Assembly: GCA_022181065.1 (NCBI GenBank)
Contig: BQMY01000082.1
Coordinates: 1-64,000, forward strand
DNA: 64,000 nt
Direction: 5' to 3'
From: Melioribacteraceae bacterium
GTDB taxonomy: Bacteria > Bacteroidota > Ignavibacteria > Ignavibacteriales > Melioribacteraceae
Shown here: one piece after another, positions 27,874-46,874 of the stretch
Numbering within the stretch: the first letter of the stretch is position 1
Layout of the letters: every line of letters starts with the position of its first letter
The notes under the pieces: model-generated
The model's input: the letters and a program-made list of their open reading frames with translations, nothing else
Told to the model about the DNA's origin: nothing
Database searches by the model: none
Position numbers and translations under genes: made by a program

Positions 27874-28941
27874 TTATTTTTTCTGTGTTGAGGAAAATAC
27901 CCGGGATTCGCAAAAAGAGGGAATAAATTGATCTATGCGGGTGTAACTGCCAAAATATTCTTTAAGCAATCTATCTGAAAGAAGCAATGAAGCTGTGTCA
28001 TGAACCGAACCACATTGCATTGAAAATTCCGCCCCATTTTTTAGCGCGGAATAAATTTTTTCAAATAGCGCGGAAATATATTCATTCCGTGGTTTTCGTG
28101 TGAAAGCCTCGGGATTCATGGTCAGATCATAAAATATAATATCAAATTTTGGCGAGTTGTCGAAATAATTGAAAACATCTTCATTCACAATATTCACGGA
28201 ACTGTCGCGGAGCGAGTTATTATTTTCCCGGAAGAAATATTTATCGGATAATTTCACCACTTCCGGATCAATATCAACCAGAGTGACAGAGTGTGGTTCT
28301 CTTTCCAGAATTTTGTTTAGTAATGTCCCATCACCCCCACCGAGTATTAGAATATCTTTCCCTCTAACATCCTGTTTTACATTAGAGAATAGTGCATCAT
28401 TGTATTGGTTGCAATCAGTTTCGGCAAGCTGAAGATCTTTGTCGAGAAACATCATTTTGCCAAAGAGCGGGTTTTGAATAATCTCAATTTCCTGATAATT
28501 GCTTTTACCCTGATAAAGAATTTCATCAACAACATATTTTATTTCAAAACCGTAAGAAGAGGCAGAGGTTATCCTGTTTTTATCAGTGACCTCTATCGGG
28601 TTGCCCCTCTGAATTTCAACCAGCTTTACAGTTTCCGGAAGAAACTCCTCGCGAAGTAAGTTGATCAGTTTTAATTGCTTGATAGAAGAGGAACAAGTGA
28701 AAACGTCGAGTGAGATATGATTTGATTCTGGATATGTATGAATACCAACATGCGATTCACTAATTATCGCAAGAACGGTCACACCAACCGGTGAAAATTT
28801 ATGGGATATAATTTTAACCTGATTGAGTCCGGAGTCCTTTATAGCTGTTCTCAATATTTCTTCCAAAACTTCAGGAGAATCAAGCTTGGAGAAATCGCAG
28901 TTAATAAATTCGGCGATATGTTGTGTACCCTGGGATTTCAC
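27874..28941 (-). CDS. Fused S-adenosylmethionine decarboxylase / spermine-synthase-like aminopropyltransferase
   Basis: A 355-residue bifunctional polyamine enzyme. Residues 1-115 are a complete class 1B AdoMet decarboxylase: KSQGTQHIAEF, the self-cleavage site ISE62-S63HVGIHTYPE, H68, and C83 in LDVFTC. Cleavage before S63 would create the pyruvoyl group. Residues 130-355 are an aminopropyltransferase: QLAETD (D176), LILGGGDGTLL (201-208), VDIDPE (binding decarboxylated AdoMet), NEDVF, YDLT (D272) and PSFCE345SRVF. YDLTMNP and PSFCESRVF resemble human spermine synthase (NDLTAVP, PSYLELWVF) more than bacterial SpeE (DSTDP). The first half makes decarboxylated AdoMet, the aminopropyl donor used by the second. 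The start is GTG without a clear ribosome-binding site. The exact polyamine product is uncertain. Confidence 0.88.
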   Translation of the reverse strand: MKSQGTQHIAEFINCDFSKLDSPEVLEEILRTAIKDSGLNQVKIISHKFSPVGVTVLAIISESHVGIHTYPESNHISLDVFTCSSSIKQLKLINLLREEFLPETVKLVEIQRGNPIEVTDKNRITSASSYGFEIKYVVDEILYQGKSNYQEIEIIQNPLFGKMMFLDKDLQLAETDCNQYNDALFSNVKQDVRGKDILILGGGDGTLLNKILEREPHSVTLVDIDPEVVKLSDKYFFRENNNSLRDSSVNIVNEDVFNYFDNSPKFDIIFYDLTMNPEAFTRKPRNEYISALFEKIYSALKNGAEFSMQCGSVHDTASLLLSDRLLKEYFGSYTRIDQFIPSFCESRVFSSTQKK

Positions 28942-46255: not shown

Positions 46256-46338
46256 GGGGAGGCGCCAAAGCTGGAGAGTTGGGGCGGACTGTAAATCCGT
46301 TGGCTAAGCCTGAGGGGGTTCGATTCCCTCCCTCCCCA
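46256..46338 (+). tRNA. tRNA-Tyr (GTA)
   Basis: Acceptor arms GGGGAGG and CCTCCCC, anticodon GTA in ACTGTAAAT, a long variable arm (class II) and a T-arm with TTCGATT. CCA is not encoded. Confidence 0.95.
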
Positions 46339-46349
46339 CAGAACGAACC

Positions 46350-46426
46350 GCGGGAGTAACTCAGTTGGCTAGAGTCACAGCCTTCCAAGCTGTTGGTCGC
46401 GGGTTCGAGTCCCGTCTCCCGCTCCA
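46350..46426 (+). tRNA. tRNA-Gly (TCC)
   Basis: Acceptor arms GCGGGAG and CTCCCGC, anticodon TCC in CTTCCAA, T-loop TTCGAGT. CCA is encoded (46424-46426). Confidence 0.95.
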
Positions 46427-46437
46427 AAACATACCTT

Positions 46438-46510
46438 GCTGACGTAGCTCAGTCGGTAGAGCACATCCTTGGTAAGGATGAGGTCACCGGTTCAATCCCG
46501 GTCGTCAGCT
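46438..46510 (+). tRNA. tRNA-Thr (GGT)
   Basis: Acceptor arms GCTGACG and CGTCAGC, anticodon GGT in TTGGTAA, T-loop TTCAATC. CCA is not encoded. Confidence 0.95.
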
Positions 46511-46519
46511 CTAGATATC

Positions 46520-46543
46520 AAATGGCAATAAGCCATTTTTTTT
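46520..46543 (+). terminator. Intrinsic terminator after tRNA-Thr
   Basis: Arms AAATGGC and GCCATTT around AATAA, running into eight T. It separates the three-tRNA unit from rpmG. Confidence 0.8.
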
Positions 46544-46605
46544 GTTAATTTTCAACAGTTCACAAATATTTAACACATTACGAACACGGAGCTCTGGAGT
46601 TACGT

Positions 46606-46773
46606 ATGGCTAAAGCGAAAAACGCAAGGCAGATTATCATATTAGAAAGTACAGCGGGTACGGGATACCGATACACTACGAAAAAGAACAAGAGAAATCA
46701 TCCTTCTAGAGTAGAGTATAAAAAATACGATCCGGTAGTTCGCAAACACGTGATTTTTAAGGAAACTAAATAA
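46606..46773 (+). CDS. rpmG: Large ribosomal subunit protein L33
   Basis: A 55-residue L33 without the four-cysteine zinc ribbon. The sequence [30 protein letters not shown] and [19 protein letters not shown] follows the bacterial family throughout. GGAG lies seven bases before the ATG. It sits between tRNA-Thr and tRNA-Trp ahead of secE, the common bacterial arrangement. Confidence 0.95.
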
Positions 46774-46778
46774 TACTT

Positions 46779-46851
<73 letters not shown>

Positions 46852-46874
46852 CAAGTATAAAAACCTTATAGAGT

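Follow-up and report, generated by a model that had tools for sequence, protein, structure and literature searches.

The window, i.e. the whole stretch of 64,000 nucleotides analysed here, belongs to a Melioribacteraceae bacterium whose genome is estimated to be 100% complete. On its minus strand, an open frame of 355 codons spans positions 27874-28941 exactly, and the plus-strand frame that begins at the same base contains many stops. The gene encodes a class 1B AdoMet decarboxylase (AdoMetDC) and, following it on the same chain, an aminopropyltransferase (Table 1). Its GTG start is consistent with 11 relatives (alignment A1). Three Pfam domains, AdoMet_dc, Spermine_synt_N and Spermine_synth, were found, all of them over their cut-offs. 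Together with the open frame, they bear out the SpeD-aminopropyltransferase fusion proposed at this place in an earlier sequence-only reading. The window protein passes TIGR03330, the model for AdoMetDCs of the B. subtilis type (107.9 bits, cut-off 75.65), and matches both SpeE models far below their cut-offs, TIGR00417 (105.4 bits, cut-off 249.55) and NF002010 (113.5 bits, cut-off 260).

No polyamine gene is present among the four neighbours of the fusion gene, nor among the seven ORFs scanned, of 30 listed, around the related loci L001 and L002 (see below). Elsewhere in the window, a cluster of four tRNA genes (Tyr-Gly-Thr-Trp) is located at 46256-46852 on the plus strand.

Table 1. Features of the fusion gene and its neighbour in the window (SMS, spermine synthase)
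Feature	Position	Strand	Remarks
Neighbouring gene, 236 aa	27062..27772	-	same strand as fusion; no family found, no sign of a functional link
Fusion gene, class 1B SpeD-type AdoMet decarboxylase and SMS-type aminopropyltransferase	27874..28941	-	355 aa, GTG start
AdoMet_dc domain, residues 9-113	28603..28917	-	Pfam PF02675, E 2.2e-30, over cut-off
E62-S63, predicted self-cleavage site making the pyruvoyl group	28753..28758	-	T. maritima alignment; invariant in 12/12 fusions
H68, processing residue	28738..28740	-	T. maritima alignment; invariant in 12/12 fusions
C83, catalytic cysteine of AdoMetDC	28693..28695	-	T. maritima alignment; invariant in 12/12 fusions
Spermine_synt_N domain, residues 129-174	28420..28557	-	Pfam, E 3.4e-15, over cut-off
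Spermine_synth catalytic domain, residues 191-349	27895..28371	-	Pfam, E 7.9e-22, over cut-off
D204 of GGGDG, equivalent of human SMS D201	28330..28332	-	alignments
DLTMNP, residues 272-277, catalytic loop one residue longer than DxxDP; D272 = human SMS D276	28111..28128	-	
PSFCESRVF, residues 341-349; E345 = human SMS E353; R347 at the relatives' Trp	27895..27921	-	

The decarboxylase half

The window protein and the Thermotoga maritima AdoMetDC can be aligned over residues 2-117 of both with no gaps, which makes E62-S63, H68 and C83 the equivalent residues. In AdoMetDC, the counterpart of H68 acts in processing and that of C83 is the catalytic cysteine; both are marked with these roles in PMC10407285. 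The 1tmi sequence, which is the non-processing S63A mutant of the T. maritima enzyme, has an Ala in the S63 column. E62, S63, H68 and C83 as well as Q150, E174, Y180, D204 and D272 are invariant in all 12 aligned fusions, the window protein included. The T. maritima alignment and this invariance across the 12 fusions both confirm the earlier claim that the class 1B active-site residues are kept.

The N-terminal half was also modelled alone (130 residues, pLDDT 90.3). It superimposes on the T. maritima AdoMetDC with Z 19.2 and an rmsd of 2.4 over 116 residues and on the N-domain of human SMS with Z 12.6 and an rmsd of 4.9 over 112 residues. The SMS N-domain has kept the fold but, according to Li et al. 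(December 2025; PMC12803844), lost decarboxylase function, whereas the window fusion retains the decarboxylase residues.

The transferase half

The sequence-only reading had likened three motifs of the second half to human SMS. They are indeed present in the translation: LAETD, YDLTMNP and PSFCESRVF stand at the places aligned to LAESD, NDLTAVP and PSYLELWVF of human SMS (3c6k). The human residue numbers D201, D276 and E353 in Table 1 were assigned by way of a 15-residue tag, an offset which we presume to be correct.

Three rare traits are common to the fusions and SMS. The catalytic loop has the longer form D-x-x-x-x-P (DLTxxP) in 12 of 12 fusions and in SMS, but in none of the 44 other ORFs from the loci and none of nine references, all of which have a loop shorter by one residue. 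The second trait is a Glu four residues past the motif Pro, found in 11 of 12 fusions and in SMS. It is absent from the 44 other locus ORFs, ten of which (membrane type) are gapped at this column, and from the four references that reach it; five reference fragments stop before. The only fusion without this Glu, L016, seems to be frame-shifted there. Finally, the C-terminal tail has been lost. Between 13 and 15 residues follow the motif position in the fusions (14 after the motif Pro in the window protein) and 17 in SMS (13 within the fragment and a further 4 up to the chain end), compared to 55-81 in the 44 other locus ORFs. L018, which has a broken frame, was omitted from the trait count. In a search with the family profile, the SMS match stops 7 residues before the chain end; this distance amounts to at least 45 in the other transferase rows listed. 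Both features of ordinary SpeE, the DxxDP loop and the C-terminal tail, are missing from the window protein. The distinction between SMS and SpeE by the loop motif, as drawn earlier, needs refinement: the added loop residue, the Glu and the shortened tail discriminate, but DLT alone also occurs in the DLTDP of Thermus and Pyrobaculum enzymes. Signature residues are not informative, with three columns placing SMS with the fusions and two with the others. In a limited look at the literature (the text of Li et al. and work on Asp276/Glu353), the three traits were not encountered.

Searched alone against the solved structures, the window protein has human SMS as its first match (87.9 bits), the next transferase being E. 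coli SpeE (71.2 bits). When the family profile is searched, SMS comes eighth (135.5 bits) and the Pyrobaculum enzyme scores 140.4 bits. When 263 ORFs from 69 loci were searched by phmmer with the C-domain fragment of human SMS, the 12 full-length fusions occupied ranks 1-12 (105.8 to 78.8 bits), followed by an ordinary SpeE with 59.9 bits and, later, the broken L018 with 50.8 bits. E. coli SpeE as query reverses this order and retrieves ordinary SpeEs first. In a local alignment, the window protein and the SMS fragment share 68 of 220 aligned positions (31%), a value within the range of about 30-32% that PMC12803844 gives for animal SMS as a BLASTP figure. The alignment score of 253 was reached in none of 500 shuffles (maximum 62). 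The relative L011 is 34% identical to the human transferase half over 218 columns. The window protein deviates in two places: where 10 of 11 relatives have a Trp it has R347, and its glycine loop reads GGGDGT, in the relatives GGGDGG.

Trees and predicted fold

In a transferase tree of 60 rows (LG+C20), SMS and 11 fusion rows lie on one side of a branch with support 100/98. The second half of the window protein is thus not found firmly inside ordinary SpeE, the placement that would have spoken against the sequence-only reading. The grouping of SMS with the fusions recurs (100/97) in a tree without the window protein, L046 and the membrane-type rows. The transferase trees omit L018 for its broken frame and, as near duplicates, L003, L026, L028, L057, L058 and L061. 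At 3.17 changes per column the SMS branch is long, and the program that built the tree flags SMS as a point where long branches come together. The end branch of the window transferase (1.53) is the longest among the bacterial fusions. Given the great length of the single SMS branch, other placements survive the AU tests: p is 0.147 for SMS joined to the membrane type, 0.168 for the eukaryotic spermidine synthases and 0.104 for the Thermus/thermospermine group. SMS may be a sister of the fusions or lie among them (50/41).

The N-domain tree, calculated without L003, L018, L028, L033, L046, L058 and L061, unites the SMS-type fusions in one clade (100/100) apart from the classic SpeD-SpeE fusions. 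Among these fusions, L017 has the longest branch in the decarboxylase half. The classic fusions group together with 99/99 in the transferase tree and 84/89 in the N-domain tree, and none of them is contained in the clade of the window protein.

The full-length model of the window protein has a pLDDT of 86.3 and a pTM of 0.66. Foldseek with this model yields human SMS chains at ranks 1-8. By VIA-align, it matches 3c6m with Z 27.9 over 317 residues and 3c6k with Z 26.5 over 323; with the other transferases listed, 227 residues or fewer are aligned. Hence, among the solved structures listed, SMS alone aligns over both halves. The superposition has an rmsd of 10.7, i.e. about 11, which means that in the model the two halves are not positioned to each other as they are in SMS.

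Relatives and distribution

A scan of genome contigs uncovered three loci in metagenome-assembled genomes (L001-L003), with 41-45% identity. The three fusion proteins closely resemble each other although the labels of their genomes differ (Thermodesulfovibrio, Deferribacteres and Nitrospirae); a recent transfer or wrongly labelled bins could account for this.

In the class of the window genome, 10 of 294 genomes carry a close relative (36-37% identity or more). Five of them are among the 34 listed genomes of family f1 (G000, G029, G149, G226 and G274), the others being G021, G031, G041, G051 (f13) and G081 (f22). Two members of the clade, L016 (1492-2562, plus strand) and L018 from G226, look frame-shifted in their C-terminal reading, and the frame of L018 is broken; this may reflect an assembly error or decay. 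The family alignment, run at E 1e-25 against 395 genomes of the phylum, gave four matches of 334-615 bits, and the next one scored 178.6. The SMS-type fusions therefore form a sharply set off, patchy clade.

Among plasmids, 25 records match, one of which, from Microvirga, covers 80% of the query with 32% identity. A search of viral contigs with the family alignment and two peptide patterns gave 80 pattern matches and no relative. In phages, none of 138 matching records covers 80% of the query, and each of the 15 rows listed matches one half only.

Polyamine genes of the window genome

The window fusion is the sole AdoMet_dc (PF02675) match of its genome. This speaks for at least the decarboxylase half being kept. 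PF01564 has four matches: the fusion itself, a 510-aa membrane protein of the PRK03612 type and two proteins that match weakly, with 36.7 and 29.5 bits (cut-off 22.9). A pyruvoyl arginine decarboxylase (TIGR00286 over cut-off; NF009064 206.4 bits, cut-off 207) and an agmatinase (TIGR01230 over cut-off) are encoded, so putrescine can be made. On paper, the route from arginine via agmatine, putrescine and spermidine to spermine is complete, with the window fusion as the predicted supplier of dcAdoMet. An OKR-type decarboxylase has no match in this genome. Of its two fold-III decarboxylases, one is LysA. The other, encoded by L040 (1309-2679, plus strand), is nearest to the N-citrylornithine decarboxylase FslC, below the FslC cut-off; judged by eye, L040 adjoins an ATP-grasp-like and a urea-transporter-like ORF.

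Proposed function and alternative explanations

From the conserved residues, the trees and the three traits, we consider it likely that the window protein is a bifunctional polyamine enzyme that makes spermidine and then spermine and belongs to the bacterial fusions ancestral to animal SMS. The N-terminal half would cut itself between E62 and S63, S63 would be converted to the pyruvoyl group, and this half would then decarboxylate AdoMet. The C-terminal half would transfer the aminopropyl group of dcAdoMet onto putrescine to yield spermidine, and a second one onto spermidine to yield spermine. Animal SMS, with its dead N-terminal half, would be derived from such AdoMetDC-spermine synthase fusions. 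Self-cleavage, both activities, spermine as main product and dimerisation via the N-terminal half are inferred here. Of all bacterial transferase halves in the tree, that of the window protein has diverged furthest, and it has R347 for Trp, for which reason its activity, too, is a presumption; the enzyme could be working, have shifted in specificity or be on its way to losing function. With both active sites kept, both halves in well-supported clades and the three traits present, the evidence nevertheless favours the earlier suggestion of a still-active ancestral fusion of SpeD with an SMS-like transferase.

That animal SMS was acquired as a bacterial AdoMetDC-spermine synthase fusion has already been published (PMC12803844). 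New here are a further member, a described clade and the three sequence marks. The same paper reports two bacterial fusions with AdoMetDC activity that synthesize spermine and some spermidine. These two, MBW2649524 (358 aa) and MCK4773364 (376 aa), resemble the window protein in domain order, length, living AdoMetDC half and kinship to animal SMS. They were expressed and are active, and the window protein is compared to them by their description in PMC12803844, with a shared clade being assumed. Human SMS itself (3c6k/3c6m) has in common with the window protein the transferase half, DLTxxP, Glu353, the short tail and a fold match over the whole length. AdoMetDC-aminopropyltransferase fusions of Ca. 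Pelagibacter, for which both activities were demonstrated, make spermidine, spermine and thermospermine (PMC11107197); they have the architecture of the window protein.

It is conceivable, though on the unlikely side, that the fusion makes mainly spermidine (or N1-aminopropylagmatine or thermospermine) and that its SMS-like traits, as ancestral or structural features, do not determine what it makes. According to PMC11107197, the bacterial spermine and thermospermine synthases tested earlier, except for two, can also start from putrescine, and the mixed products of the Pelagibacter fusions point in the same direction. Moreover, apart from the fusion, PF01564 finds its best match in this genome in the membrane protein of the PRK03612 type, so that the window fusion may have to supply spermidine. 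Against this, SMS too has the additional loop residue and the Glu, which none of the 44 other locus ORFs possesses, and the two fusions of this architecture tested by Li et al. make spermine with some spermidine. A protein in decay that has become inactive is improbable: its long transferase branch, R347 and the altered GGGDG loop would fit, but the frame is open throughout, none of the named catalytic residues has been lost, and no second AdoMet_dc match is available in a genome estimated to be complete.

The resemblance to SMS might also result from convergence or long-branch attraction, SMS having arisen from a separate fusion. SMS as well as the window protein has a long branch, the AU tests leave alternatives standing, SMS is only eighth in the profile search, and the signature residues are divided three to two. 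However, the grouping persists when the window protein is removed, the three rare traits agree with it, and SMS is the one solved structure among those listed that matches both halves, which renders such an origin of the resemblance improbable. Least probable is a neofunctionalised N-terminal half that decarboxylates arginine or ornithine. Such SpeDA and SpeDC proteins are widespread among SpeD relatives (PMC10407285), but here no other AdoMet_dc protein could feed the transferase, and a separate pyruvoyl arginine decarboxylase is encoded. In addition, P51 and P71, the prolines nearest to the site, are invariant, and either may be the one Pro which the same paper describes as fixed in true AdoMetDC.

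The clade of the window protein adds members in which both halves are apparently intact, together with three simple sequence marks. Tentatively, and with less confidence, this patchy clade could be the nearest living bacterial kin of animal SMS, and the three marks could constitute the structural switch from a spermidine to a spermine synthase. The DLTxxP loop, the Glu of PSxxE and the lost tail would then provide a sequence rule for spermine synthases of the SMS type. Living bacterial fusions reveal the former role of the dead decarboxylase domain in human SMS, an enzyme needed for normal neural development (PMC11107197).

Other fusions of polyamine enzymes

Classic bacterial SpeD-SpeE fusions, reportedly the subject of work by Green et al. 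in 2011, occur alongside the SMS-type fusions within their class or phylum (L036, L044, L045, L052 and L068). Like the window protein, they carry AdoMetDC in front of an aminopropyltransferase, but this transferase is SpeE-like with DxxDP and a tail of 60-77 residues, and both halves lie outside the clade of the window protein. Two kinds of fusion that differ in both halves within one class suggest separate origins.

A 617-aa triple fusion is encoded by L046 (1366-3219, minus strand) in G447, a genome of the same phylum. It combines a SET domain (PF00856, 5.9e-12) with an AdoMet decarboxylase (PF02675, 1.7e-34) and an aminopropyltransferase (PF01564, 4e-49). A lysine-methyltransferase fold is an odd companion of polyamine enzymes, and the gene next to L046 likewise starts with a SET domain.
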